DNA of 64,000 nucleotides from Pseudomonadota bacterium. GTDB lineage: Bacteria; Pseudomonadota; Gammaproteobacteria; Burkholderiales; JABEVD01. The stretch is taken from NCBI GenBank assembly GCA_021835845.1, contig JAKBJU010000006.1, positions 59,706 to 123,705 of the forward strand, read 5' to 3'. Positions 29,050 through 48,715 of the stretch are shown here, piece after piece; positions within the stretch are counted from its first letter, which is position 1; each line of letters opens with the position of its first letter. The notes beneath the pieces are model-generated. The model saw only the letters and a list, made by a program, of their open reading frames with translations, was not told where the DNA came from and did no database searches. A program made the translations under genes and the position numbers.

Positions 29050-29058
29050 TGTATGTGG

Positions 29059-29402: not shown

Positions 29403-29639
29403 ATGAATTCTTCATCAGCAAATGTGGACCAGCTCCAAGTTGAGCTTGAGAAACGAGCGTTGCTTCGTCGACCAAGGGTCCAAGCGATCACTGGCCTGAG
29501 CACGTCGTCACTGTATGACGCAATCAGAGATGGCCGTTTTCCTGCACCAGTCAGGATATTCCCCAACACTCCCAATAAATCCGTTGCTTGGCTAGCCACC
29601 GAAGTTCTGGAATGGCTTGATTCTAGGAGGCACGCATGA
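29403..29639 (+). CDS. AlpA-family excisionase/transcriptional regulator
   Basis: 78 residues. The winged-HTH core LLRRPRVQAITGLSTSSLYD followed by GRFPAPVRI and WLATEVLEWLDSR is the AlpA (CP4-57-type) pattern. Such proteins act as regulators or excisionases for P4-like integrases, which matches the integrase at the other end. GGAGG precedes the ATG by five bases. The stop overlaps the next ATG (ATGA). Confidence 0.87.
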   Translation: MNSSSANVDQLQVELEKRALLRRPRVQAITGLSTSSLYDAIRDGRFPAPVRIFPNTPNKSVAWLATEVLEWLDSRRHA

Positions 29640-30694
29640 GTGAGATCGCGAAGGCTGTTGGTGGTATCAACTATCTAGAACTTGGCGCTCAAAATGATCT
29701 ATCCGTGCTGCGCGTCATTGGCGCCCAAGGATGGGTACGAGAGTATGAGTTAGCCCTTCTTACGGGCTTCCATATCGAAAAAACTGAGCTCATTTGCCGA
29801 AGGCTGGCGAAGAAGGGGCAGATATTTCGGGAAAGAAAGGGGAACGACGGCATTTTCATGCGACTCCGGCAGGCTGGCGCAGACAAAATCAATGGGAGAT
29901 CTGGAAAAGATGTCGAGATCCCCCGAAGCTGGGCTCATGACTGTTTGGCGATTCAATCGTTAAATTTTCTAAAAGGAGAATACAAGTCCAAGCAGATTCA
30001 GACTGAAAGCATGATTCGCACGAGGGGCGGAGAGAAAGGCAAAATTCCCGACGGGGCTCTTCAGGGAGTTGAACTCTTCTTCGAGCAGGAGTGGTCCCGT
30101 AAGAGCGGGAAACTTTTGTCCCGCCAGGTCCACAAGGTAGTGGAGCTGGCGAAAAAACAAATCTCTTCCGTAGTTAGCTATCCGTATCCTGCTACGATAT
30201 GCGGAGGCATTGACCACGAAGTAAGGCACGGCAACGCCATACGAGACCGATTGGGACCGGCGTCGGCTCCTGTTAAATTCCTTCGTTGTCATTTCTTTTC
30301 GGTCAGAACATTTGAGACTGCGAAAGTCGATAGGTTCGAGCTGATTGAACTGCCCGATGTCAAGAAGACCAGGTCCGATGGACAACGGTCTGGACAGTTA
30401 GACGAGATTTCTCGAATTAGACGTAAGTTCCAATGGCACGATAGGTATTCCCGCGAAGGAGGGCTTAATATCTTAGAATCCATCCTTTTTAGGGGCGATC
30501 AAACCGTCGAGAAGGTTAAATTTATCGAGAGCAGCGAATGGGAGTCACCACACATTCTTGTCTGGGGCGAAGAACGGATTGAATCAGATAATGATGATCA
30601 TTTTTCTGATTTTGTCTCGCGGCAAAAAAGGATAGTCGTTGGAGAATTCATCGCACTAGAGATGTCGTGCGATACTAGCCTGGAAGGTGCATAA
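29636..30694 (+). CDS. Replication-relaxation-like / winged-helix nuclease-like protein
   Basis: 352 residues, translationally coupled to alpA. The N terminus (about 20-90) is a winged helix (VREYELALLTGF, LICRRLAKKGQIFRERKG). The middle, AHDCLAIQSLNFL ... KIPDGALQGVELFFEQEWSRKSGK, has the PDG...ExE...K order found in replication-relaxation (Replic_Relax-type) and other PD-(D/E)XK-like proteins of mobile elements. Probably involved in island replication or mobilisation. Family assignment is by pattern only and is tentative. GC content looks lower than in the flanks. Confidence 0.55.
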   Translation: MSEIAKAVGGINYLELGAQNDLSVLRVIGAQGWVREYELALLTGFHIEKTELICRRLAKKGQIFRERKGNDGIFMRLRQAGADKINGRSGKDVEIPRSWAHDCLAIQSLNFLKGEYKSKQIQTESMIRTRGGEKGKIPDGALQGVELFFEQEWSRKSGKLLSRQVHKVVELAKKQISSVVSYPYPATICGGIDHEVRHGNAIRDRLGPASAPVKFLRCHFFSVRTFETAKVDRFELIELPDVKKTRSDGQRSGQLDEISRIRRKFQWHDRYSREGGLNILESILFRGDQTVEKVKFIESSEWESPHILVWGEERIESDNDDHFSDFVSRQKRIVVGEFIALEMSCDTSLEGA

Positions 30695-31750: not shown

Positions 31751-32632
31751 ATGCCGGTCTTCATCTCCAGGGAGGGCCAGCTCCGGACGCTCTCTACCCT
31801 GCCCTGCCGATATGAGAAGGATCTGCAGAAGCTCATCGAAGAGAATCTGATGACGGTTCTCGAGATGCACTACCTGGATTCCCAGTATCCGACCAGCAAC
31901 CGGGGGAAGATCGATACCCTGGCCGTGGATGTGAATGGCGCGCCGGTGATCATCGAATACAAGCGCGACAGGAACAACAACGTCATAAACCAGGCGCTTT
32001 CGTATCTGAAGTGGCTCAAAGCCCAGAAGCCGGAGTTCTTCAGGATGCTGATGCTCACCAAGCTGGATCCCGAGGTATTCGACCGCATCCGGCTGGACTG
32101 GAACAATCCGCGCATCGTGTGCATTGCCGAGTCGTTCAGCCGCTTCGACATGGATACGGCGGAAGTCGTCCCGCTTCGGATCGAGCTCTATCGGTACTGC
32201 CAGTACGAGGAAAGCATCTTCAAGTTCGAGCCTGTCATGATGGGTGAGCGCGGCGAGGAAACCATACCGGTTCGCGGCGACAAAAGCGTGTTCGACGTGA
32301 TGAAGATGCAGTCGCATGCCAATGCGCTGGTGCAGAATCTGTTCGACAAGCTGCGAGAACGGATTCTCTCCCTGGACGAGCACATCATCGAGAAGACCGG
32401 CAAGAAAGGCGTGGCCTATGCGATATCCAAGCACTTCTGCGAGATCCAGATCAAGACCGACATGCTGGTAATCGATCTCAGGCCGGTCGATTACTTCGAT
32501 CCGAGGGAGATGGTGGAGCGGATCGGGGTCGGTTACACAATCACCATGAACCGCCGGATCAGACTGAAGAAAGAAAAGGATCTGGATTACGTCTTCTCGC
32601 TCATCGAGCAGTCGTACCAGAACATCTTGTGA
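31751..32632 (+). CDS. NucS/DUF5655-like PD-(D/E)XK endonuclease
   Basis: 293 residues. The N-terminal half carries GKIDTLAVDVNGAPVIIEYKR, the D...ExK core of a restriction-endonuclease-like fold, preceded by the helical RYEKDLQKLIEENL typical of NucS/DUF91-like nucleases. The C-terminal part (AYAISKHFCEIQIKTDMLVIDL onward) resembles the DUF5655 domain. It is cytoplasmic and probably cuts DNA; its target is unknown. Its coupling to an HTH gene and place in an integrated island suggest a defence or element-maintenance role. Confidence 0.74.
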   Translation: MPVFISREGQLRTLSTLPCRYEKDLQKLIEENLMTVLEMHYLDSQYPTSNRGKIDTLAVDVNGAPVIIEYKRDRNNNVINQALSYLKWLKAQKPEFFRMLMLTKLDPEVFDRIRLDWNNPRIVCIAESFSRFDMDTAEVVPLRIELYRYCQYEESIFKFEPVMMGERGEETIPVRGDKSVFDVMKMQSHANALVQNLFDKLRERILSLDEHIIEKTGKKGVAYAISKHFCEIQIKTDMLVIDLRPVDYFDPREMVERIGVGYTITMNRRIRLKKEKDLDYVFSLIEQSYQNIL

Positions 32633-33003: not shown

Positions 33004-34156
33004 CCGACGCTAACACTTCTGCAAACCACAGAAATAGGCATGCATGACTTCACAGTCCGCATTTGCGATAGTGCGGGCATGAGTTCAATTCCGGTCCAGC
33101 GGGACGGTGGTCCGACGGCCCTCAGGGCCTAGGAATCGGGTGGTGTGCATTTGTGAGCGCGTCCAGCGCGAATGCCTCACCGGGAGCCGACCTTCGATTC
33201 GTGAGGCCGGCGCTTGCGCCGCCGCCTCGCGAAAACCGCCCCCCAGGGCGGTGGTCGAAGTGTTGGGGTGGGCCGGGCACTTCCCCAAAGCCGGCGAGAG
33301 AGTCATTCGCCGGGCCCCTGTGACGTTCAGGGGCGGGCAAAGCGGTTCGAGCTGGACTCTCAAAAGACATCGCCCCTAGGCGAGGCTTTTAGAGAGGCGC
33401 GAAGAAGCGGCTTGCCCGCCCGTGAAACGGTCGCTCCCTGAGCGAAGGGGAAGTGCCCCTGTCTTTGACTTGCCGATGCTGCGCCCCTAGGCGCAGAGCG
33501 GGTTTGGCGACGTTCAGGAGCCCAAAAACACGCGTCGTCGGATCCCCTCCCCCTCACAAAACAACATAGAAAAAAGTGAGGGAGGAAGGGAGGGCGAGAA
33601 TTGCCGCGCAACGTCCTGCAATCGTTGCTTCAGACAGGTATCGAAAACCACAAGACCCATTGGGCAGGACGCGGGGAGCAGCATCGCAATGTGACTGATT
33701 ACCCGCGGTCATGCATCCCGGCGTGCATGGTTTCGGACGCTCCGTTTGCGCATATGCCGGAATATCGACGTGCCTACGGTCGGCACATGGGGCCGGCATT
33801 TTACTTCTCGACCGAAGGGATTCGTGCCCAAATTACTCTCGGGGTTCATTGACCGATACCACCCCCAAAAACCCCAAACCCGAACTGCCGCTCCTTGCTC
33901 TGGAAGAAGCCATACCATGCAATTCCAAATTCCCGCTGTTCGGCCTTTGCCGCCTGTGGGTAGTATCGTATTGTTGGGCAGAAAGGTGCCAGTAACCAGC
34001 CGCTCAGCTAGCTATTGACGTGAACGGCTGCTTTCTCTTTCGCGGAACTGGTGCTCCGGGTGCCAAAAGCCGCCATCTAAGGTTGCCTTGCAAATAGCGT
34101 TGTGGCACGTGCTAGTATGCTTCTTCTGATCCGTATTTAGCAGTGGAGGCGTTCGC
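33004..34156. other. 1.15-kb gene-free region, palindrome-rich
   Basis: No ORF here has protein-like composition or a ribosome binding site in a suitable place. The first half is the hairpin array listed separately. The second half has further palindromes such as CATGCA-tcccggcg-TGCATG (33710) and GTGCC-tacggtc-GGCAC (33768), then turns ordinary towards the 388-aa gene. Long gene-free DNA is unusual in this otherwise compact window. Confidence 0.6.
33094..33582. ncRNA. Array of GC hairpins, candidate structured non-coding RNA
   Basis: At least ten small hairpins follow each other in 490 bp: for example GGCCC-tca-GGGCC (33117), GGCGC-tt-GCGCC (33209), ACCGCCC-ccca-GGGCGGT (33235), CCGGCGA...TCGCCGG (33291), GCCCCTG...CAGGGGC (33314), TCGCC-ccta-GGCGA (33370), TCGCT-ccctg-AGCGA (33431), AGGGG-aagtg-CCCCT (33446), CTGCGCC-ccta-GGCGCAG (33479) and CCCTCAC...GTGAGGG (33551). 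Stems are 5-7 bp and several loops are CCTA or CCCA tetraloops. The hairpins differ from each other, so it is not a tandem repeat or CRISPR. A structured RNA or a protein-binding DNA region are both possible; the strand is not decidable. Confidence 0.4.
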
Positions 34157-35323
34157 ATGCGAGACAAAATCAATGTCCTGTATTACCCCGACATGTTCGC
34201 TGACCAAACGACTCTGAAAAAGGCGATCCTGTTCTTCGATGAGATTCATTTCATGGATCGTCCGTCATTCACTTTCGATGGCGGACTGGGAACCATAGGA
34301 ATGCAGTCCCCCTTACGGCAGTTCGAACGCCTTTTCCGACGCGATAACGTTCCTATCTATATCCATGAACCTCTGAGTGGACGTCTGCACGGCGATTTTC
34401 TGGATCAGATTTCCGCCGACGTCAACGACCCACGGTTCCTCACTCTATTTCAGGAAGGACTCCGTACGTCCGAGAATTTTCGCCTTCATCACATCCAGCC
34501 AGGCAAATATTCCGACATAGAGACGAATGAAATTTGCACAGAGCGGGAACTCGCCAATTATTTTCTATCTCTCGACACGTCATCTATTGCAGAATCCCAC
34601 GGGAGCGCGATGGCCCTCCTGACGGACGAGCAGATAAGACCATACGGCTTCTCCAATCCAGCATCCTTAATAAAGACATTTGTTTTTACTGCAGCCGTCT
34701 GCTCGGCGAAGATGAACCTCGCCCTTTCGATTGGAAGTGAGGAAGGATTCACGCCCCTTGCGGACGCTGCGCCCTACAGCCACCTGCTCGGCTCTAAGTA
34801 CGCGCGCGCTGTCGGCATACTAGGCGAGGCTGGAGGTCAGGTTCCTCTAACCGATCTGAGTTTCGCGATTTTCGATGAACTGGTGCCGAGCGATGTTCTC
34901 GCCAAGATGACGTTCGAGGATGTAATCCGCTATCGCTTTGAGTCCGAAAAGGCTAGGGATGAGTTCCTTGAGTATCTGAGCGTTCTCCAGCAAAAAATGG
35001 GGCGGATCGAGGACGATGTTAAATACGCGGAAATCATAGAGCGTCTAATTAAAACCGAAATCCTTCCAGCGGCGTCCTCCTTTAAGAACAAACTGAGAAC
35101 TATCAACGAGTCGCTTGCCGGGACACTAACGAAGGGCCTCATGGGCGCTGGCAGCTTTGCTGCTGGCAGTGTGCAAATTTTCGGGGATATGTCCCTGAAT
35201 AAAATTCTCGCACTAGCAGGATTGACATCTGCCTACGTAGGAAGCGCCGCCATTGAAGCTCTCGTTGCACAAAGGGCCGCCACAAGGGAGTGCTCCCTGT
35301 CGTATATACTGTCCTTAGACTAG
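34157..35323 (+). CDS. Hypothetical protein, 388 aa, hydrophobic C-terminal region
   Basis: Starts MRDKINVLYYPDMFADQTTL with a short KAILFFDEIHFMD segment that recalls DUF6236-type proteins; that is only a suggestion. The body is soluble and helical. Two hydrophobic stretches near the C terminus (GLMGAGSFAAGSVQIF, then LNKILALAGLTSAYVGSAAI) could be membrane or pore-forming helices. GGAGG lies 11 bases before the ATG. It stands alone between the hairpin region and the efflux operon. An effector of a defence system is imaginable, but nothing proves it. Confidence 0.62.
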   Translation: MRDKINVLYYPDMFADQTTLKKAILFFDEIHFMDRPSFTFDGGLGTIGMQSPLRQFERLFRRDNVPIYIHEPLSGRLHGDFLDQISADVNDPRFLTLFQEGLRTSENFRLHHIQPGKYSDIETNEICTERELANYFLSLDTSSIAESHGSAMALLTDEQIRPYGFSNPASLIKTFVFTAAVCSAKMNLALSIGSEEGFTPLADAAPYSHLLGSKYARAVGILGEAGGQVPLTDLSFAIFDELVPSDVLAKMTFEDVIRYRFESEKARDEFLEYLSVLQQKMGRIEDDVKYAEIIERLIKTEILPAASSFKNKLRTINESLAGTLTKGLMGAGSFAAGSVQIFGDMSLNKILALAGLTSAYVGSAAIEALVAQRAATRECSLSYILSLD

Positions 35324-35733: not shown

Positions 35734-37299
35734 ATGGGACTGCGCTGGGCCTTACCGATCAACCATGCTGTTGTCATGCTGCTTAGCACAGCCTTTCTAT
35801 GCGGCTGCGCGGTCGGTCCTGACTTCAAGCGGCCTGAACCACCTTCTGCCAAAGGCTATTCTCCTGATCCTATTGCAGGCAAGACGACATCTTTTCCTGT
35901 ACGGGATGGGAGGGCACAGCATTTCGATCCGGAAAAGGACGTTCCTTTCGACTGGTGGTCGCTCTTCAAATCGCCCCAGATCAATTCGCTCATAGATAAA
36001 GCATTCAAATCGAACCCAACCATCGATTCGGCTCAGGCTGCCTTGAAGGCAGCCCAGGAGAATGTGATTGCCCAGGAGGGGTTTTTTTACCCGACCATCG
36101 GATTTGCATATTCACCGTCCCGAAACAAGTTGGCTGGAAACATGGGTGGCAACTCTCCTGGGGTACAAGGCAATGGCACTGTCATACAAACTTATTCCAA
36201 TCCACCGCCAGGATCTCCGCCTTATAACGCACCGGTATATTACAATTTTCATACCGCTCAATTGACGGTGGGCTTCACCCCAGACGTCTTTGGGCTCAAC
36301 AAAAGACAAACGGAGTCGCTGCAGGCGCAAGCAGAAGCGCAACGCTTTCAACTGGAGGCAACCTATGTCACGCTTGCATCGAATGTCGTTGCGGCGGCAT
36401 TGCAGGAAGCATCGTTGCGTTCACAGATCGATGCCGTCCGCAAGATGATCAGCATCAATGAAGACCTACTAAAGATACTTCAGGGGCAATTCAAGTATGG
36501 CTTCGTTACCGGGATTGATGTCGCGGTCCAGGAATCTTCTTTGGCCCAGGCCAAGCAGGCTTTGGTTCCATTGGAGAAACAACTTGAGCAGACACGCGAT
36601 CTCATCAGGGCGCTTGTCGGAAATCCCCCCAACGAAGATGTCAGCGAAACATTCGACCTTGCTTCAATTCACTTGCCGCAGGAACTCCCGTTAAGCCTAC
36701 CTTCAAGACTCGTCGAGCAACGCCCAGACGTCCGCATGGCTGAGGCGGAACTTCATTCGGCAGCGGCGCAAGTAGGAGTTGCGGTCGCAAGCAGGTTACC
36801 CCAGTTCGACATTACCGGAATGATTGGTGGAATGGCCTCGGTCCCGAGCCAAATGTTCCGTTCCGGCGGGGGATTCTTCAATCTCATCGGCAATGTCGGG
36901 CAAACGATCTTTGACGGCGGAACCTTGAGCGCAAGGGAACGGGCAGCCGATCAGAACCTGATCCAGGCCCAGGGACAATACAGGGGGACAGTCATCACGG
37001 CTTTGCAAAATGTGGCCGATACATTGCATGCCATCAAGTCCGATGCAGATGCCCTGAAATTTTCAGCCGAAAATGAACAGTCCGCGCAGAAAGCTCTCGA
37101 TATCACCCGCAAGCAATATGAAGCGGGTTACGTGAGCTATCAAGTGCTGCTTGCGGCAGATTTGAACGAGCAACAAGCCATCATCGGCCTTGCCCAGGCC
37201 CAGGTAGCCCGTTTGGGCGACACGGCAGCCTTGTATCAGGCATTGGGAGGGGGATGGTGGAATAGGCATGACGATACGAAAGGAATGGCTGCAAGATGA
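35734..37299 (+). CDS. NodT-family outer-membrane efflux lipoprotein (CzcC/OMF role)
   Basis: 521 residues. The signal peptide ends in the lipobox LCGC, followed by AVGPDFKRPEPP, the standard NodT-type start. The body has two repeats of the outer-membrane-factor family with long helices. It forms the outer-membrane channel of the tripartite pump encoded with the next two genes. It overlaps the adaptor gene by ATGA. Confidence 0.91.
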   Translation: MGLRWALPINHAVVMLLSTAFLCGCAVGPDFKRPEPPSAKGYSPDPIAGKTTSFPVRDGRAQHFDPEKDVPFDWWSLFKSPQINSLIDKAFKSNPTIDSAQAALKAAQENVIAQEGFFYPTIGFAYSPSRNKLAGNMGGNSPGVQGNGTVIQTYSNPPPGSPPYNAPVYYNFHTAQLTVGFTPDVFGLNKRQTESLQAQAEAQRFQLEATYVTLASNVVAAALQEASLRSQIDAVRKMISINEDLLKILQGQFKYGFVTGIDVAVQESSLAQAKQALVPLEKQLEQTRDLIRALVGNPPNEDVSETFDLASIHLPQELPLSLPSRLVEQRPDVRMAEAELHSAAAQVGVAVASRLPQFDITGMIGGMASVPSQMFRSGGGFFNLIGNVGQTIFDGGTLSARERAADQNLIQAQGQYRGTVITALQNVADTLHAIKSDADALKFSAENEQSAQKALDITRKQYEAGYVSYQVLLAADLNEQQAIIGLAQAQVARLGDTAALYQALGGGWWNRHDDTKGMAAR

Positions 37300-38447
37300 T
37301 AAACCTTAATAAGGCACTGTTACTGCTTGTGCTTGCATCGCTTTATGGGTGTGAAAAGCATCAATCGATCAACGAGGTGGACAAGGCATCCAGTAATGGG
37401 CAAAGCATCAGGATTTCCGCCACCCAGCTTAGCCGGTTGAAAATCGGAACAGTTGGTATGCGCCCGTTCCTGCAGCAGAGCGAAGCGGTAGGCACCATTG
37501 CATTTAACGATGAAAGAAACGTCCAGGTATTCCCATCCTATCAGGGCAAAATAAATGGAGTGTTTGCTGAAATCGGCCAAGACGTGAAAAAGGGGAAGGT
37601 TCTCTATACCATCGACAGCCCCGATCTGGTACAAGCCGAGTCCGCGATGATAGCAGCGGCTGGTGTTCGCGAGTTGACAAGCCGGACGCTCGATCGCGCC
37701 AAGTTGCTTTACTCGGAGAAAGGGCTTGCCGAAAAGGACTTGCAGCAAGCCGTATCCGATCAGCAAAGCGCCGAAGGTGCATATCGTGCGGCAGTCAATG
37801 CCGTGCGCATATTCGGTAAATCCGATGCTGAAGTCAGCCGCATTATCGCAGAGCGAAAAGTTGATCGAAACATGCCCGTAAAAAGCCCGATCAATGGGCG
37901 CATTACCGCCATGAATGCGCCGCTTGGTTTTCTTGCGCAACCCGGATCATCTCCTGCCCCATTTACAGTTTCCGATCTTTCGACAATGTGGATGATAGCG
38001 AATGTGCCTGAAAGGGATGTCCCTAAGCTTCACCTTGGTGATGCGGTGGAAGTGAAGGTCGATGCCTATCCTGGCAAGCTCTATCAGGGAAAGGTGACCA
38101 ATATTGGGGCGTCAGTTGATCCCAATACGCATTCTGCAACCGTACGTTCTGAAATCAGCGATCCCAGTCACGAGCTGCATCCCGGTATGTTGGCCACGTT
38201 TACCATCCAGACAGGGGCTCCCGTTCAATCCGTTGCAGTTCCGCTTGACGGCATCGTCAGGGAAGGTGATGGGACGATGATTGTATGGGTAACGAGCGAT
38301 CACCAGAATTTTACTCGAAGGCCGGTTGAAATCGGGTTGCAGCAGGATGGGTACGATCAGATCCTTTCTGGTTTGCACTCTGGCGAAGTGATTGCGACAG
38401 ATGGCGCGATTTTCTTGAGTAATGCTGTGGCCGTCGCCACCCAATAA
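37296..38447 (+). CDS. RND efflux periplasmic adaptor (CzcB/CusB-like lipoprotein)
   Basis: 383 residues with a lipoprotein signal (LLLLVLASLYGC). Contains the lipoyl-like halves (VFPSYQGKINGVFAEIGQDVKKG; MPVKSPINGRITAMNAPLG), a helical hairpin between them and the beta-barrel ending SVDPNTHSATVRSEI. It links the inner-membrane pump to the outer-membrane channel. No methionine- or histidine-rich N-terminal metal site of the CusB type is visible. The next gene follows after 15 bp. Confidence 0.9.
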   Translation: MINLNKALLLLVLASLYGCEKHQSINEVDKASSNGQSIRISATQLSRLKIGTVGMRPFLQQSEAVGTIAFNDERNVQVFPSYQGKINGVFAEIGQDVKKGKVLYTIDSPDLVQAESAMIAAAGVRELTSRTLDRAKLLYSEKGLAEKDLQQAVSDQQSAEGAYRAAVNAVRIFGKSDAEVSRIIAERKVDRNMPVKSPINGRITAMNAPLGFLAQPGSSPAPFTVSDLSTMWMIANVPERDVPKLHLGDAVEVKVDAYPGKLYQGKVTNIGASVDPNTHSATVRSEISDPSHELHPGMLATFTIQTGAPVQSVAVPLDGIVREGDGTMIVWVTSDHQNFTRRPVEIGLQQDGYDQILSGLHSGEVIATDGAIFLSNAVAVATQ

Positions 38448-38462
38448 GCAGTAAGGCATATC

Positions 38463-41400
38463 GTGCTCAAGAATCTTTTATCATTCGCGCTTTCCAGGCG
38501 CCCAATCATCCTGCTTGGCCTAATGGCCTTTATCGGGGCTGGGGCCACTGCATACATTAAACTGAATGTCGAAGCCTATCCCAACCCGGCTCCCGTCATA
38601 CTCGAAATAACCGCGCAAGCCCCCGGGCTTTCCGCCGAAGAGATGGAGCGTTACTATACCATCCCGATGGAAGTGGGCTTGGCCGCGACTCCAGGTATTG
38701 CCAATATTCGGTCCACTTCGTTCTATGGACTTTCGTTCGTGCGGGTAACGTTCAAATACGGCATCGATTATTACTTTGCCAGCACTCAAGCATCGATCAG
38801 CCTGCAGCAGAATGTCAGCCTTCCCAACAATGTCCAGCCTCAGATACAGGGGTCAAGCTTGGTCGGCGAGATTTTTCGCTATCAAGTCGTGGGGCCACCC
38901 CATTTCGGCCTGACCAATTTGCGTTCAATCCAAGACTGGGTTCTGCAGCGGCGCTTGTTGACCGTTCCAGGTGTGGTCCAGGTCAATACCTGGGGCGGCA
39001 CCACCAAGGAGTTCGACGTCCAGGCAGATTTGAATAAACTGCAAGCCTACAACGTGACGATTCAACAATTGGTATCGGCCATCAACAATGCCAATGTCAA
39101 TGTCGGGGGAAGAACGATCAATATCGGCCAGCAATCGGTAAACATCCGTGGGATTGGCCTGATAGACAGCGGCGGAGCCAACGATCTGACAAAAGGTTAC
39201 CGGGTAGCCGATATCAAAAACATCGTGCTCACCCAATCCAATGGCGTTCCGGTATTGGTGAAAGATGTGGCCAGAGTATCTATCGGCCATATGCCGCGAT
39301 TAGGCAAAGCCGGACGTGATGACGATGACGATGTGGTCGCAGCGATTGTTGTCATGAACCGGACCATGCATACCAATGACGTTGTAGCTCGAGTAAAAGC
39401 AGAGGTCGAGAAAATCAACCATGACGGCACCCTCCCCCCCGGAGTTAAGATCGTTCCGTTTTATGACAGAACTTCCCTGGTTTCAGTGACGACGCATACC
39501 GTTCTGCACAACCTGATCTTTGGGTGCTTCTTGGTATTTCTGATTCAGTGGATCTTCCTGGGTGACTTGCGCAGCGCCATTATCGTCGCAGTCAACATTC
39601 CTTTTGCGCTTTTCGTGAGCATCATCATGCTGGTAATCAACGGCGAATCCGCTAACCTGCTTTCTCTCGGCGCAGTGGATTTCGGCATCATCGTGGATTC
39701 GGCCGTCATTCTGGTGGAAAACGTCTTCCGAAATTTTCAAAAGAACCCAAGACAGCAACGTGAAATTCTGGCGGAACATGCCCAGAGCGATAGCCGCGAC
39801 TACACCAGAGGGCCGGGATGGTCTTCGCGTTTGCGCATGATCTTCATCAGCTCGATTCAGGTTGACAGGGCGATCCTGTTTTCCACGGCGATCACGATTG
39901 CCGCCTTCATTCCGCTTTTCACGATGCAAGGCGTGGAAGGGCAGATTTTCGGGCCGATGGCAAGAACCTATGGTTATGCGTTGCTCGGAGCATTGATTGC
40001 GACCTTCACCATTACGCCCGTCCTGTCATCCCTGCTGTTGCCCAAGGAAATCAGGGAAACCGAAACAATCATCGTATCCAAGCTCCGCGTCATGTATTCT
40101 CCCATCCTCCGATGGGCACTCAATCAACGCAAGACGACCGTTGCAATCGGAGCAGTATTCCTGCTCCTGGCCGGCGGGCTTTCTACCCAGTTGGGAACAG
40201 AATTTCTGCCCGCATTGGAGGAAGGCAATTTGTGGATACGTGCGTCCATGCCGCCAACGATTTCTCTTGAAGCTGGCATGTCTAGTGTGACGAGGATACG
40301 TCATATCCTGAAAAGCTACCCGGAAGTCATTACCGTAGTCTCGCAGCATGGCAGACCGGATGATGGTAGTGATGCTTCCAGCTTCGGCAATGCTGAGTTC
40401 TTCGTGCCGCTCAAACCGTTCGACGAGTGGCCAAATGGCATGACGAAAGCCAAGCTGGTTGATGAATTGCAGCAGAAATTTTCAAAGGAATTTACGGGCA
40501 TCGAATTCAATTTTTCCCAGTATATCCAGGACAATGTAGAAGAGGGATTGTCTGGAATAAAAGGCGCGAATTCGGTCAAGATTTTAGGCCCTGACCTGCC
40601 CACGCTTGAGAAACTTGCTAGCGAAGTCATGCACGAGATGGCCGGCGTAAAAGGCGTTGCCGATTTGGGCGTTTTCAGGGTGATGGGGCAACCCAACCTG
40701 GACATCAAGATCGATCGGCTCAAGGCTGCACGCTACGGACTCAATACCGGCGACGTGAATACGGTCATCCAGGCGGCGCTCGGGGGAACACAGGCCACAA
40801 CAGTGCTGGAAGGGGATCGCCAGTTTCCCCTCGTGGTACGGTTATCCCCGGAATACCGCGACAAGTTCGACACCATCCGGAACGTCAAGGTCATGTACCA
40901 GGCTCCTAGTGGGGCCAATGCCTACATTCCGCTCAGCGAACTTGCATCCATTTCGCTGGATACGGGGGCATCGTACATCTATCATGAAAAGAATCAGCGG
41001 TTCATTCCCGTGAAGTTCAGCGTCAGAAACCGGGATCTCGGCAGCACGGTTGCAGAGGCTCAGGAAAGGATTGCCAAGGCGATTCAGCTTCCGCCTGGAT
41101 ATCATATCGAATGGGCGGGTGAATTCCAGGAAATGGAATTGGCAAAGCACCGCCTGGAAATCATTCTTCCTGTCGTCATCGGACTCATACTGATACTGCT
41201 TTATGCATTGTTCAATTCGTTCAGGGACAGCCTCCTGGCCCTTGCAGCCATTCCATTCTCGATTGCCGGCGGCATTGTTGCGCTTTATATCACCGGCCTC
41301 GACATGAGCGTGTCCGCTGCCATCGGCTTCGTGTCGTTGTTCGGCGTGTCGGTCATGAACGGCATTCTGGTGATTTCATACTTCAATCACTTGCGACTGG

Positions 41401-41702
41401 AAGGGATGACGCCAGTAGAAGCCATGTATCAAGCCGCTGAACAAAGGATGAGGCCCATGCTGATGACTGCGTTATCAGCCTGCATTGGATTGCTTCCTGC
41501 TGCCATTTCAACCGGGATCGGCAGCCAGGTTCAGCGACCCTTGGCTACAGTGGTAGTGGGAGGTATGCTGCTGGGACCGATCATGCTTCTGATCGTAGCC
41601 CCCGCCCTTCAGATGATGTTTCTGGGGAAGTCTAAAAACCCAAATGATACGCATGCAATTCAACCTGAAGAAGATATTGAATTCGAATCGAACAAGGACT
41701 AG
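38463..41702 (+). CDS. Heavy-metal efflux RND transporter (CzcA/HME family)
   Basis: 1079 residues, the HME-RND length, with a GTG start after TAAGGCAT. Twelve membrane segments in the usual 1+5+1+5 layout flank two large periplasmic loops. The TM4 motif reads SLGAVDFGIIVDSAVILVEN: this is the DFGxIVD type of divalent-cation pumps (CzcA-like), not the AIGAMVDAA type of copper/silver CusA, and it has serine where VDGA is usual. Proton-driven export of a divalent metal is likely; which metal is uncertain. Gene order OMF-adaptor-pump matches czcCBA. Confidence 0.9.
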   Translation: MLKNLLSFALSRRPIILLGLMAFIGAGATAYIKLNVEAYPNPAPVILEITAQAPGLSAEEMERYYTIPMEVGLAATPGIANIRSTSFYGLSFVRVTFKYGIDYYFASTQASISLQQNVSLPNNVQPQIQGSSLVGEIFRYQVVGPPHFGLTNLRSIQDWVLQRRLLTVPGVVQVNTWGGTTKEFDVQADLNKLQAYNVTIQQLVSAINNANVNVGGRTINIGQQSVNIRGIGLIDSGGANDLTKGYRVADIKNIVLTQSNGVPVLVKDVARVSIGHMPRLGKAGRDDDDDVVAAIVVMNRTMHTNDVVARVKAEVEKINHDGTLPPGVKIVPFYDRTSLVSVTTHTVLHNLIFGCFLVFLIQWIFLGDLRSAIIVAVNIPFALFVSIIMLVINGESANLLSLGAVDFGIIVDSAVILVENVFRNFQKNPRQQREILAEHAQSDSRDYTRGPGWSSRLRMIFISSIQVDRAILFSTAITIAAFIPLFTMQGVEGQIFGPMARTYGYALLGALIATFTITPVLSSLLLPKEIRETETIIVSKLRVMYSPILRWALNQRKTTVAIGAVFLLLAGGLSTQLGTEFLPALEEGNLWIRASMPPTISLEAGMSSVTRIRHILKSYPEVITVVSQHGRPDDGSDASSFGNAEFFVPLKPFDEWPNGMTKAKLVDELQQKFSKEFTGIEFNFSQYIQDNVEEGLSGIKGANSVKILGPDLPTLEKLASEVMHEMAGVKGVADLGVFRVMGQPNLDIKIDRLKAARYGLNTGDVNTVIQAALGGTQATTVLEGDRQFPLVVRLSPEYRDKFDTIRNVKVMYQAPSGANAYIPLSELASISLDTGASYIYHEKNQRFIPVKFSVRNRDLGSTVAEAQERIAKAIQLPPGYHIEWAGEFQEMELAKHRLEIILPVVIGLILILLYALFNSFRDSLLALAAIPFSIAGGIVALYITGLDMSVSAAIGFVSLFGVSVMNGILVISYFNHLRLEGMTPVEAMYQAAEQRMRPMLMTALSACIGLLPAAISTGIGSQVQRPLATVVVGGMLLGPIMLLIVAPALQMMFLGKSKNPNDTHAIQPEEDIEFESNKD

Positions 41703-42973: not shown

Positions 42974-44923
42974 TCACTGGTCTTGCCAGTCTTCTGGAAC
43001 AAGCGCTGGCGGTTTTGTCCAGGGTTGTTCCACCAATGCTTCTTGGAACCATTGATCACGAAGATTTGCGTGCTCGGTAACTATCAACTGGAAACCTGGA
43101 ACATCCTCTTGGGTGAACTTCAGCAACAGCTCGAACAGTCGGCGCACCGCATCGAGATCGGCATCCATTTCCGTCTTCTGCACCGAGCCATCGGCATCCC
43201 TGTAGATCTGTTCGGACGGAAAGTAGACTTGGGTTGGTTGGTCGATCAGCAGGAAGCGCGGAATCGGCCGGTTGTTCTGCGCCGCGAACAGATGCAAGGC
43301 GAGCAGTGCCGACAGATGGTAGGCCAGATGATTTTCGCCGCCGCCGGTCCGGCTCATCGGCACAGAACGCTCGGGCCGATCGAAGATGATCGTCAACTGC
43401 GGCAGGTTGAGCCGTGCAGGGTAAGGAGCAAATTCGGCGTTGAACTTCTGGATGTATCTCGACACCTGTGCGGAGATGTTGTTGAGGATCGAGGTCAGTC
43501 GCTCGTTGCTGTCGTCGGCACCAATCTGTTCCTCAAGCTGCTTGACTTTATTGTTGAGACGACGATTCTCCGCTTCCAGTTTGGCAATATCCTCATTCGG
43601 GAGGAGCGTTTCCAAGAACAGGCTGATACGGCCGACCACGCGCGCGGCCGCGTTGTTGCGGGTGCCCATCTGGGCGATTACTTCGTTGGCCGAGATCGCC
43701 GCGGACAGTTCCACTTCCTTCTGCTTGATATGGCCCGCAATTCCGTCCGCCTTGCCAGTAAGCTCGGCCAGGTAGGCTTCGAGCTTGGGGCGCTGGCCGG
43801 TGGCGATGCGCAATTCCTTGTCGAGTGATTCCAATTCGTTGAGCAGGACGACGGCGACCGGAGACTCCAGCGCCAAGTTCCGTTCGCTGAACGGCCATTG
43901 CCACTCACCACTGTCGGGGTTCTTCGGCAGCGCCTTGATCGAAGCGAGCCGGTTTATCTGTTCGGCGGCCTCGTTTTCGTAGCCGCCTGCCCGTTTAGCG
44001 AACTGTCGCGCGGCGTCGATCCGGGCCTGAGTGTCGCGGCGATCTTGGCGCAACTGGGCTAGTTCATCCTCCAGAAGCGAAACGCGGCTACCATCGTCGT
44101 CTGGCACTGTTTCGGGCTTCCAAGACAGCGCCGACCTCAATGCCTCGATGACCCCGTCGGCATTCGGGTTCTCGTCGGTGTTGCCGATGACCCCTACCGT
44201 CTTTGCTTCCGAGTAGAGGCCGATAGCCTGTTCATGCGACGTGTCGACGGCGTCGCGCGCCTGTTCCAGCTTCTTATTGCTGATCGTCAAGTCCCGCTTC
44301 GCTATCCGCAACCTGGATTCGAGCTCGTAGCGGTTGTGGGAAGAAACCCCCAAAAGGATCGGAAGCGTGTCTCGGATTGTCTGTGCCGGGTTGTACTCGT
44401 CCTGGCGATAATTGAAAAGCTGATCCTTGTTGGCGACGAGCGTCTGCTTCTGGAAAAGATAGTAGAAAGTGTGTTTGATATTCGCGTCGTAGCTGTCGCG
44501 ACTGTGTTCCAGCGCGACATCAGTTCGGTTCTCTGGAATACCGAGTAGGCGCGACAGCAGTTCGGCGACGCTTTCATCGTCAGTGTTAACGACCAAGTCC
44601 TTGAACTCGGGCACCACCACCTGAGTCCCCCGTCGCAGCATTGCCATGCTACAGCTGGCAGCGCCGCCAAGTGGGAGTGGTTTGGCGATTAGCACCTGCT
44701 CCTTATCGAACTGATAGTTAACAGCGAACCAAGTCACCTTGTCAGTGATGACACCTTCGGCGACATGGAAGGATGAGCGCCCCATGCAGTATTCGATGAT
44801 GTCAGAGATAGCGGACTTGCCAGTTGAGGAGCGGCCGGTGATAACGTTGAGTCCGTCCACCTTAAACTGAATATCTCGGCGCTTACCGTCGTGGCTGTAG
44901 ATGTGGATGGATCTGATTTTCAT
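42974..44923 (-). CDS. ABC-3C system ATPase, DUF3732 (Rad50/SMC-like)
   Basis: 649 residues. Walker A GRSSTGKSAISDII lies near residue 30, a long coiled coil covers about 205-460, the ABC signature region is RTGGGENHLAYHLSALLALH near 525, and Walker B is RFLLIDQPTQVYFP. DUF3732 is the ATPase of the ABC-three-component conflict systems described by comparative genomics. Overlap with the middle-component gene is ATGA, and three genes form one operon. It probably senses or acts on foreign DNA or nucleoprotein; the mechanism is not established. Confidence 0.88.
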   Translation of the reverse strand: MKIRSIHIYSHDGKRRDIQFKVDGLNVITGRSSTGKSAISDIIEYCMGRSSFHVAEGVITDKVTWFAVNYQFDKEQVLIAKPLPLGGAASCSMAMLRRGTQVVVPEFKDLVVNTDDESVAELLSRLLGIPENRTDVALEHSRDSYDANIKHTFYYLFQKQTLVANKDQLFNYRQDEYNPAQTIRDTLPILLGVSSHNRYELESRLRIAKRDLTISNKKLEQARDAVDTSHEQAIGLYSEAKTVGVIGNTDENPNADGVIEALRSALSWKPETVPDDDGSRVSLLEDELAQLRQDRRDTQARIDAARQFAKRAGGYENEAAEQINRLASIKALPKNPDSGEWQWPFSERNLALESPVAVVLLNELESLDKELRIATGQRPKLEAYLAELTGKADGIAGHIKQKEVELSAAISANEVIAQMGTRNNAAARVVGRISLFLETLLPNEDIAKLEAENRRLNNKVKQLEEQIGADDSNERLTSILNNISAQVSRYIQKFNAEFAPYPARLNLPQLTIIFDRPERSVPMSRTGGGENHLAYHLSALLALHLFAAQNNRPIPRFLLIDQPTQVYFPSEQIYRDADGSVQKTEMDADLDAVRRLFELLLKFTQEDVPGFQLIVTEHANLRDQWFQEALVEQPWTKPPALVPEDWQDQ

Positions 44924-45408
44924 GGACGAATCCCGAGAGTCGTGTAAACAGTCGCCCTGTCGGCGATGCGTGCGAATTCTTTTCCTACGATGCGCGCCAC
45001 TTTCTGACAGGAGACGGTTTCGGCGGTTCCATCGACGGTCTTGCGCACCTTCTGGGGAACAGTCTGGATACGACCGTCTTCCACGACAGCGATGCAGCCT
45101 CTTTCCATTAGCAGACCGAACCCCTCGAAGGCATACGGCAGCATCTGCGTAACCCGGTCGGCGAAGCCCACCATAAGTTGCTGGTTCTTCTCCGCAGTCT
45201 TGAGCAGGTAGCTGCGCGGACTGCTGGCGATCACCTCACGCGAATCCTTGTGTAGGCACAGGGGCAGCACAAGCAGCGTCAGCGAGAAGGGCATGCCGCG
45301 GGCGTCTTCTTCCTCATAGCCGTGCAGGGCACGGGACAAAACCAAACCGCAGAACGCAGGGTTGAACAGGTTCCGGATCTCGAAGGGGCGCTGATCCCAT
45401 CGCTTCAC
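44920..45408 (-). CDS. ABC-3C system middle component
   Basis: 162 residues. The N terminus RPFEIRNLFNPAFCGLVLSRAL and the ending VARIVGKEFARIADRATVYTTLGIRP are typical of the small helical middle component that links the ATPase to the effector in ABC-3C systems. It overlaps both neighbours by four bases (ATGA), so all three proteins are coupled. Confidence 0.84.
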   Translation of the reverse strand: MKRWDQRPFEIRNLFNPAFCGLVLSRALHGYEEEDARGMPFSLTLLVLPLCLHKDSREVIASSPRSYLLKTAEKNQQLMVGFADRVTQMLPYAFEGFGLLMERGCIAVVEDGRIQTVPQKVRKTVDGTAETVSCQKVARIVGKEFARIADRATVYTTLGIRP

Positions 45409-46628
45409 GAGGCCACCCCCAGCACCTCGCCAAGACGATCGAGGAATCTGGGATGCCAGTAGACCTTGGGTTCTGGCGTGGCATCCGCCAGGATGTGGAA
45501 GCTGCCGCGAAGGACATAGGGCTCCGTCACCTGTGCGCGGATGCGTAGGGATTCGATCTTCCCGGTCTCAAATTCTGCCCAGTTATAGAGAGCGGCGCCG
45601 GCTTCGCGCAGTGCATCTTCCGCGCTGTCGTCCTTCAGCTTCTCGAAAGCGACATCCTTGTAGCGACCCCACTCATCGGCGAGGCGATCTTCGTACTCCT
45701 CGACCTCTCCCAACGCAAGCAGGTTCTCGCGCGCCCAAGCCGACCGTTGTTCGAAAGCCCGGTAATAATCCAGAATCGCACTCCTGATCCGATTCGAAGA
45801 AATACCGATTTCGCGCAATTGAGCCACGAACAGGCGCGGGTCGGCATCAGTGTTGATCTCGTCAGTGGGCACCTTTCCACGGAAGGTGATAGGCAGGTTG
45901 TCTGCCTTGTATTCCTCGGCGAAGTTCGAGAGTTTGTCCGACACCTCGTAACCGAAGATCGCTTCCGGCCTGGCGCCAGTCAACTGTTTGATCACGGCAT
46001 CGGTCCACCAGCCCTCAAGCCGCTCGAAGACGAACTCGCGGTGCTCGCGCCGGATACTTCGCATGTATTTGTCCTTTATGAGCACCGGGAGCTCGTCGAT
46101 GCGAGGGCTACCATCGAGAATTAGGATGCGTTCGAGAAAATCCTGCTTCTCGGGTTCGCTCAGCTCGTTAAAAGCTGTGGCGATCTGCGCGATAAGTTTT
46201 GATGCGGATCCGGCAAGAGCGGCATCGGCAAGTTCGGTCAGCGTTGTCACATCGATGGAGACGACGGGCTGATCGGGGAGAAAACGGGCTAGGAATGAGC
46301 CGCTCGACACCGTGCCGGTGGTGAACAGGAAGAACCGCAAGTTTGATGTAGCGCGGCCATCCCGCTTGTACCGCGTCAACCAGATGTTGACGGACTTCCA
46401 GAAATCCGTCGACAGGTCGGTCAGCCGATCGCCGATCGCCTTATGTTTGAGTGATGCCAAGGATTTGCCGCCGTCGCCGTCGATGAAGTCGAGGTCGTCG
46501 TCCTTTTCCAGGAAGATGGCAGTGTCTTCCGGTAGTTGGAGCAATTGGAGCAGGGCGAGACGCGCTTGATAGATGTATCCCAAGCCTTGCTCGCCAGCTG
46601 AGAATTGGTCAGTAGTTTTTCCTGTCAT
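45405..46628 (-). CDS. ABC-3C system effector/C-terminal-domain component (nuclease-like N terminus)
   Basis: 407 residues, first gene of the operon. The N terminus AGEQGLGYIYQARLALLQLL, then FLEKDDDLDF and SLASLKHK, has the E...D...K order of a PD-(D/E)XK-like nuclease domain (Cap4-type layout); that is a pattern reading, not an alignment. The remaining helical part matches the ABC-3C C-terminal-domain protein. It probably is the effector that harms DNA when the system is triggered. Confidence 0.8.
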   Translation of the reverse strand: MTGKTTDQFSAGEQGLGYIYQARLALLQLLQLPEDTAIFLEKDDDLDFIDGDGGKSLASLKHKAIGDRLTDLSTDFWKSVNIWLTRYKRDGRATSNLRFFLFTTGTVSSGSFLARFLPDQPVVSIDVTTLTELADAALAGSASKLIAQIATAFNELSEPEKQDFLERILILDGSPRIDELPVLIKDKYMRSIRREHREFVFERLEGWWTDAVIKQLTGARPEAIFGYEVSDKLSNFAEEYKADNLPITFRGKVPTDEINTDADPRLFVAQLREIGISSNRIRSAILDYYRAFEQRSAWARENLLALGEVEEYEDRLADEWGRYKDVAFEKLKDDSAEDALREAGAALYNWAEFETGKIESLRIRAQVTEPYVLRGSFHILADATPEPKVYWHPRFLDRLGEVLGVAS

Positions 46629-47200: not shown

Positions 47201-48460
47201 TCAAGCGGGTTTCCTGAAGGGAATCACGGCAGCTCCGGCCTTCAGGCTATCCAGATAATCGGACCATTCCTGCATCATCTTTCGGCGCTCCGGAAGATAC
47301 ATTTTGTGCTGCTCCCTCTTGTAGGCCGCCTTCACCCTGTTCTGCTCTTCATGTGCCAGCTGGCGCTCAAGCCATTCCTGACGATACCCCATATTGTCGA
47401 GGATCGTGGACGCCATGGCCCTGAAGCCGTGGGGCGTCATCTCTTCTCCAGTCCATCCAAGCCTGCGCATCGCTGAGCGGATGGCATTGTCAGACATCGG
47501 GCGGTTCTTGTCCCGCGCCCCAGGAAAGACAAATTTGTCATTTCCGGTGAGAGGCTGGATTTCTTTCAGCAGCTCTAATGCCTGACTGCTCAGGGGAACC
47601 AAGTGAGGCGCCTGGGTCTTCTTGCCCATCTTGTGGCCCGAAGGCGGAATGGTCAGAATCGCGTCGTCGAAATCGATCCAGTCCCACTGCATTTTTCTGA
47701 GTTCGCCGGGCCGAAGAAAGAGGCGAGGGGCCAATGCAAATGCGCAACGAACCACAATAGTCTTTCCGTAATAGCCGTCGATGTCCCTGAGCAGATCGCC
47801 GACTTTTTTCGGATCGGTTACTGCTGCGAAATGTTTGTCCTTTCTGTAGGGCGGCAGTGCGCCCTTCAGGTCTCCGCTCGGATCGCGTTCCGCAAGGCCG
47901 CTTGCCACTGCGTACCGGAATATCCGGCCGCATTCCGACAGCGCTCTGTGCGCTGTCTCGAGAGCCCCTCGAGCCTCGATACGCCGCATGACGGACAGGA
48001 GTTCGGGGGCTGTGATTTCACTGATCGGACGCTTTCCTATCCACGGTAGAACATCCTTTTCGAGCCGTCCGAGGATCTTGCTCGAGTGGTTTTCAGCCCA
48101 GTCGTTGCTCTTGCTGAACTTCTCGAACCATTCACGGGCAACCGTTTCGAAATTGTTTCCCTGCGCAACGTCGACTTCGATCCTGGCTGCCTTTTCAGCC
48201 TTCTTCTCGGCCATCGGATCGACGCCCTTCCGTATCCTGGCCTTGGCCTCGAATGTCTTTTCCCTGGCTTCCTTTAGGGGTACTTCGGGGTACTGGCCGA
48301 ATGAGAGGAGCTTTTCTTTCCCCTCGAACCTGTATTTCATCCGCCACAGCTTGCTGCCTGTTGTCTTGACAAGAAGATAGAGTCCATCGCCATCAGAGAG
48401 CTTGAAGTCCCTGTCTGCGGCTTTTGCGGCCTGAACGGCCTTGTCGGTGAGCTTTCCCAT
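47201..48460 (-). CDS. P4-type tyrosine integrase of the island
   Basis: 419 residues from the ATG at 48460; the track start 12 bases upstream is a TTG. The N-terminal DUF4102 arm-binding domain (KLTDKAVQAAKAADRDFKLS) is followed by the core-binding domain and a catalytic domain with FLRPGELR (Arg I), TPHGFRAMA (His-x-x-Arg), LAHEEQ and the nucleophile in KAAYKRE. All catalytic residues are present, so it may be active. It points away from tRNA-Met, 178 bp from the tRNA 3' end, the usual arrangement for such elements. Confidence 0.93.
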   Translation of the reverse strand: MGKLTDKAVQAAKAADRDFKLSDGDGLYLLVKTTGSKLWRMKYRFEGKEKLLSFGQYPEVPLKEAREKTFEAKARIRKGVDPMAEKKAEKAARIEVDVAQGNNFETVAREWFEKFSKSNDWAENHSSKILGRLEKDVLPWIGKRPISEITAPELLSVMRRIEARGALETAHRALSECGRIFRYAVASGLAERDPSGDLKGALPPYRKDKHFAAVTDPKKVGDLLRDIDGYYGKTIVVRCAFALAPRLFLRPGELRKMQWDWIDFDDAILTIPPSGHKMGKKTQAPHLVPLSSQALELLKEIQPLTGNDKFVFPGARDKNRPMSDNAIRSAMRRLGWTGEEMTPHGFRAMASTILDNMGYRQEWLERQLAHEEQNRVKAAYKREQHKMYLPERRKMMQEWSDYLDSLKAGAAVIPFRKPA

Positions 48461-48461
48461 T

Positions 48462-48513
48462 GATACCCCCAAAGATTCGGAATTGAATATTGGATACCCC
48501 TAAAGGTACCCCC
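48462..48513. repeat. Integrase arm-type direct repeats, right end
   Basis: GATACCCCC (48462), GGATACCCC (48492) and GGTACCCCC (48506), the same words and orientation as at 29115-29135. They overlap the integrase start region, so integrase binding could also regulate its own expression. Confidence 0.52.
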
Positions 48514-48638: not shown

Positions 48639-48715
48639 TGGTGGTGATAGGTGGACTTGAACCACCGACCCCAGCGTTATGAGTGCTGTGCTCTAACCAA
48701 CTGAGCTATATCACC
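48639..48715 (-). tRNA. tRNA-Met (anticodon CAT, elongator type)
   Basis: 77 bases including an encoded CCA. Acceptor GGTGATA pairs with TATCACC. The D-arm GCTCAGTTGGTTAGAGC, anticodon loop CTCATAA and T-arm GGTGG-TTCAAGT-CCACC are all intact. The anticodon stem has one A-C mismatch next to the loop. The elongator type is inferred from resemblance to E. coli tRNA-Met (CTCATAA loop) and from the paired acceptor end. An island integrase lies at its 3' side. Confidence 0.9.

Follow-up and report, generated by a model that had tools for sequence, protein, structure and literature searches.

A conserved multi-hairpin element near MobC relaxase genes is probably a single-strand-folding oriT region of MOBC mobilizable elements

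The island and its genes

The window (the whole stretch of 64,000 nucleotides that was analysed) contains an integrative mobilizable island of ~20 kb, which extends from ~29.05 to 48.64 kb. At one end of the island, a tyrosine integrase gene (47201..48472, − strand; Pfam Phage_integrase and Arm-DNA-bind_3) adjoins a tRNA-Met gene (48639-48715). For the left end, only a weak match (17/25) to the tRNA end was found, at 29052, and this boundary is tentative. The island carries genes for an AlpA-type regulator and a MobC relaxase, HTH genes, a gene for a DUF5655 protein, the structured element described below, an RND efflux set, an ABC-three-component-like pair and the integrase. The AlpA-type gene (29403..29639, + strand; PF05930, E = 4.7e-13) adjoins mobC.

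The mobC gene (29636..30694, + strand) encodes a MobC-family (MOBC) relaxase of 352 amino acids with a winged HTH and a PD-(D/E)XK-type motif. It was recognized with an iterative HMM seeded with proteins matching NCBIfam NF041423 ('MobC family replication-relaxation protein'); the seeds matched with strong E-values, and the best of them scored 195 bits, where the curated cut-off is 200. The score of the window ORF was E = 2.2e-7 before inclusion and E = 5.3e-6 with an HMM that left it out, and the invariant residues H101, D139, E150 and E152 are kept in the alignments. In an AlphaFold model (mean pLDDT 61.7), an alpha/beta domain comes after a winged HTH. PDB matches to this model were credible only over the winged HTH, and its nuclease domain had no clear PDB match. 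A mobB homologue was not found within the window. Elements that depend on a helper may lack mobB; its absence lowers the likeness to CloDF13 and is not a defining loss.

The DUF5655 protein (31751-32632), with a NucS-like N-terminal part, matches the PADLOC candidate defence family PDC-S18 (E = 7e-71). Its gene is part of a conserved cassette (HTH_26, HTH, the DUF5655 gene and a 112-aa gene) that is also present in a genome of the same genus, G008. The 112-aa protein was considered as a fixed partner of the element and rejected: in G003:C27 its gene runs straight into sequence resembling the window from 33730 onward and lacks the element, and the G008 copy of the element is found at the opposite side of the operon. 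At a same-genus locus (L012, 1810-1960), the 112-aa gene is directly followed by sequence like that of the window from 33730 onward, without the element, which offers a possible empty-site comparison. Directly after the element, the window encodes a 388-aa protein of no known family (34157-35323), for which no relative was found in the plasmid collection. The RND efflux set (35734-41702) comprises an outer membrane factor, an adaptor-like protein and an AcrB-type pump, and the ABC-three-component-like pair (42974-46628) consists of a DUF3732 AAA protein and a CTD7 protein.

A hairpin array without a gene

The structured element spans 33094..33620 on the + strand, 2.4 kb from mobC and with several other genes between. 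An earlier note on this DNA had described an array of unlike hairpins with no gene in 33094-33582, and the array is real. Nine non-overlapping perfect stems of at least 5 bp with loops of 3-9 nt are found there, while dinucleotide shuffles have a mean of 3.6 (sd 1.6) and none of 500 reaches nine. The ORFs of the stretch are mechanical calls, located on both strands and overlapping each other, and the searches made gave no homology support for any of them. The statement that almost every base can be drawn into stems was too strong for short hairpins alone, which span 151 of 489 bases (59 in shuffled sequences); longer-range stems contribute more. The claim of at least three CCTA or CCCA loops held: three were counted against a shuffled mean of 0.01 (0/500), and they turned out to be hallmark loops of a family. 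We also agree that the hairpins are not copies of one repeat unit.

Folding energies point in the same direction. With RNA parameters (33050-33620), the MFE z-score was −6.75 for the + strand and −3.57 for the − strand; with DNA parameters, over a slightly shorter stretch (33080-33620), the values were −8.07 and −5.14. An Rfam search of the element gave zero matches even at E ≤ 10, including GOLLD, ROOL, OLE and HEARO, and Rfam gave none over the homologous elements.

Several parts can be recognized along the + strand. A GGGTGGT block (33137..33146) is shared with the homologue from the same genus, and a GTCCA-loop hairpin (33157..33169) belongs to the GTNCA-loop class of the family. They are followed by a core three-way junction (33180..33276) made of GGGAGCC, a closing stem and two hairpins. 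The 5′ arm of the closing stem, CCGACCTTCGA (33187..33197), pairs with the 3′ arm, TCGAAGTGTTGG (33255..33266), as supported by core covariation and by a covariance-model match; the third pair is G.T in the window, which is also its most frequent state in the family. Core hairpin 2 (33235..33252) has a CCCA loop, as in most family members. A long-range stem (33275..33458) takes the position of the family's long inverted repeat: its outer arms (33275-33286/33447-33458) are paired at 12 of 12 positions and its inner arms (33326-33348/33404-33426, 23 nt) at 83%, and these two stems enclose the middle of the element. One CCTA-loop hairpin (33370..33383) lies within the long-range stem, and another (33479..33496) lies in the 3′ domain and has CCCTAG-hairpin counterparts in many members. 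Like core hairpin 2, both were detected in the hairpin count.

Homologues of the element

When the window element was compared by BLAST with plasmids, phages and its own order, nothing convincing was obtained, and ~42-bit matches in other genomes were dismissed as chance GC-rich similarity. The neighbouring 112-aa gene was used as a route to G008, whose copy of the element (L026) shows 66% identity with that of the window over 133 columns (E = 4e-5). Further homologues were obtained by BLAST with the G008 copy, and the motif common to them, GGGGAGCCG-(hairpin)-AGGGNGC-(loop)-GCNCCCGGT, was scanned in 84,980 genomes. True members were found in Thiomonas, Gallionellales, Rhodocyclaceae, Hydrogenophilales and other betaproteobacterial MAGs; altogether, homologues occur in beta- and gammaproteobacteria. 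Actinobacterial, archaeal and similar pattern matches, L045 among them, were judged to be chance. Single-mismatch counts made with short flanks were chance-dominated and discarded. Viral contigs of IMG/VR were scanned with a pattern, and no element was detected.

R1, a covariance model built on the core, detected members in 10 of the 399 genomes of the order, among them a further copy on contig C23 of the window's own genome, which harbors another, more divergent, on C17. A second model, R2, added three members elsewhere in the class. Several copies come from one genome or genus and are not independent. With R2, which was built without the window, 33180-33276 was the top match (24.2 bits, E = 0.0032 in 10 kb, the next best having E = 0.74; covariance-model E-values are rough). 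By this match and by its identity to L026, the window carries the covarying three-way junction of the R1/R2 family.

Conservation and covariation of the core

A MAFFT alignment of the first two homologues was misaligned and was replaced by hand-chosen cores and a covariance model. The comparison between L033 and L034 (65% identity) was set aside as unreliable for counting pair changes. Covariation was then counted on 19 collected cores and indicated that pairing is kept: 94.9% of cells are paired in the named structure, both sides have changed at 24 of the 28 pairs, and double-change cells amount to 123, compared with 33 in shuffles. No shuffle out of 500 reached any of the covariation measures, and slid controls were at most 49% paired. 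Because R1 was built from five of the 19 with the named structure, and the alignment was fitted to it, these counts lean toward that structure; despite the fitted alignment, the covariation excess is far above shuffled and slid controls.

Stem sequences are free to vary as long as pairing stays. Conservation is found instead at unpaired positions of the core: GGGGGAG, the CCCA/CCAA loops, an A between the hairpins and a GGT after them. The conserved loops of the family are CCNA, GTNCA and GNA. Outside the core, most members have a long inverted repeat that spans 70-190 nt, GTNCA-loop and CCTA-loop hairpins, and GNA triloops.

A GC-rich intergenic stretch with short spurious ORFs might also be viewed as a decayed coding gene, repeat debris or a chance collection of hairpins. 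Such a view has hardly any probability left: hairpin counts lie above all shuffles, and it is refuted by compensatory covariation in diverse homologues, unmatched in 500 shuffles. What the homologues share is a conserved, covarying structure borne by mobile elements, not a decayed gene.

Linkage to MobC relaxase genes

The element shows near-constant linkage to mobC. Among homologues found through the element itself, 21 of 23 have a mobC gene within a few kb (18/20, plus 3/3 from an independent scan); loci selected through MobC were excluded from these figures. One locus where mobC was not found, L034, lies on a contig of 3.9 kb; at L089, a coupling protein is present and the stretch examined gave no MobC match. 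Genes for MobB-type coupling proteins are near 8 of 20 element-found loci. The orientation of the element relative to mobC varies among members.

The reverse search gave a concordant result. In plasmids picked by MobC alone, the core is present upstream of mobB: the core model matched a 5.5-kb Klebsiella plasmid (L083, E = 7e-12) and an Aeromonas plasmid (L084, E = 4e-8). The match in Thauera L087 was weak (E = 0.0013). In MOBC modules the order is oriT-mobB-mobC, with nic sites within an inverted repeat (PMC2262945). The core of the MobC-picked plasmids is therefore located at the oriT position.

Comparison with known systems

The MOBC modules of CloDF13, pMET1 and HPI-ECOR31 resemble the element described here in that it adjoins MobC genes, and often MobB genes, and contains inverted repeats. 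The nic-type sequence GGGTGGTC occurs in each arm of an inverted repeat in CloDF13 and some relatives, and GTCCA and CCCA hairpins are found on the strand opposite to mobB in CloDF13 and relatives. When R1 was run on CloDF13, the best score fell in the region of these hairpins, yet it was weak (15 bits, E = 0.15). In contrast with those modules, the window copy is chromosomal, is separated from mobC by several genes, lacks mobB and does not have GGGTGGTC in the arms of its long stem. The long stem itself is present, and the GGGTGGT block at 33137..33146, which falls outside its arms, is a possible candidate for a nic-like sequence.

A second relative by analogy is the sgm-sRNA of SGI1, which is structured, adjoins the oriT of an integrative mobilizable island and is required for SGI1 transfer (PMC9299015). 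The comparison was made by description; it differs in that SGI1 uses MpsA, of tyrosine-recombinase type, instead of a MOBC relaxase, and in size (core ~230-280 nt). The ornate RNAs ROOL, GOLLD and OLE are likewise large, with many hairpins, several junctions and conserved loops, but the element has no Rfam match, is linked to a relaxase and has hairpin loops of DNA type. The kind of site, an oriT, is known; the conserved ornate architecture appears to be new. In the literature searched, no description of the three-way junction with its fixed set of loops was found, although parts of the hairpin set may already be drawn in the CloDF13 papers.

DNA or RNA

The + strand is taken as the functional single strand because its MFE is lower than that of the − strand in 21 of 23 members and because G.T exceeds A.C 2-3 fold in stems (19:4 in the core, mostly in one column; 26:8 in the long stems). 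GTNCA-loop hairpins of at least 5 bp are found 30 times in the family set, while none of this class was counted on the − strand. An excess of G.T over A.C would arise with RNA too. Strand asymmetry also counts in favour of a rival explanation, namely that the element is transcribed into a structured RNA of 500-700 nt which acts in mobilization, for instance by bridging MobC, DNA and the coupling protein, in analogy with the sgm-sRNA of SGI1. The multi-way junction, the invariant loops and the covariation are also as seen in ornate RNAs; the sgm-sRNA provides a precedent beside an oriT (PMC9299015), and another handle would be useful to relaxases for which no covalent adduct has been observed (PMC12857230).

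Other properties speak against RNA. The G.U fraction of MFE pairs is 6.9% on both strands, below the 10.4% of shuffled sequences. Hairpin density is 17.8/kb in the family versus 6.0/kb in RNase P, tmRNA and 23S RNA, and long perfect Watson-Crick stems are far denser than in these RNAs. (When helices were called symmetrically, a comparison of G.U rates with RNase P and 23S RNA had no discriminating power and was dropped.) Among 349 family hairpins, 36 have C(GNA)G loops, whereas GNRA loops are nearly absent (8) and UNCG loops are absent; GNA loops form exceptionally stable DNA mini-hairpins (PMC4686876). In addition, no recognisable conserved terminator was seen, the orientation relative to mobC is variable, and Rfam gave no match. 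Because of the GNA-type loops, the near absence of GNRA and UNCG, and the larger z-scores with DNA parameters, we lean toward single-stranded DNA ahead of RNA as the functional molecule. A transcribed structured RNA is possible though unlikely. A bolder version, in which MOBC elements depend on an ornate RNA of 500-700 nt, built into the relaxosome as a structural component and handing DNA over to the secretion channel in place of the covalent protein-DNA link of other relaxases, strikes us as doubtful.

A proposed function at the transfer origin

Altogether, these observations suggest that the stretch is probably an extended oriT region of a MOBC integrative mobilizable element, which folds as single-stranded DNA. 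Three functions had been put forward from the sequence: a large structured RNA, an element-type regulatory RNA and a protein-loading site. The last fits best, as the element tracks the MOBC relaxase gene and sits at the oriT position of MOBC mobilization modules; the two RNA options are less favoured by the loop types and by folding with DNA parameters.

A tentative scheme can be outlined. The + strand would be exposed upon mobilization, first when it is nicked and unwound in the donor and a second time in the recipient, and would then adopt its fold of hairpins, three-way junction and fixed loops. We infer that this folded strand might serve as a handle recognised by MobC and by a coupling protein, whether that of the element or one supplied by a helper. 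MobC would recognise the loops and the junction and nick nearby; the coupling protein may receive the strand with the help of the fold, which may also aid rejoining. A nucleic acid handle is plausible because no covalent adduct with DNA was seen for MOBC relaxases, and the way in which they bring DNA to the secretion channel and join it again is still to be explained (PMC12857230).

A different use of a folded + strand would be a single-strand initiation site, or a Frpo-like ssDNA promoter, located beside oriT and involved in priming complementary-strand synthesis or in early expression in the recipient. Leading-region ssDNA promoters that adjoin oriT exist, and a folded + single strand is compatible with them. 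However, the element is linked to the relaxase gene and not to leading-region genes, no stem resembling −10/−35 sequences was noticed by eye, and several members have long inverted repeats with nic-like arms inside the element. We thus regard this explanation as very unlikely.

If the oriT reading is correct, a conserved single-strand fold beside nearly every MobC gene examined would be a concrete candidate for how MOBC relaxases deliver and rejoin DNA, and its core is resolved to individual base pairs. The covariance model could also locate transfer origins in genomes in which comparing sequences does not reveal them, islands such as that of the window included.

Certain genomes carry more than one copy of the element. 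In G216, two copies with MobC (L074 and L025) are ~89% identical and show compensatory changes between them. In the window's own genome, the copies on C17 (L027, 8000-8800) and C23 (L067, 9671-9752) are each accompanied by mobC and a coupling-protein gene, so that at least three MOBC elements are found in a single genome of 2.2 Mb.
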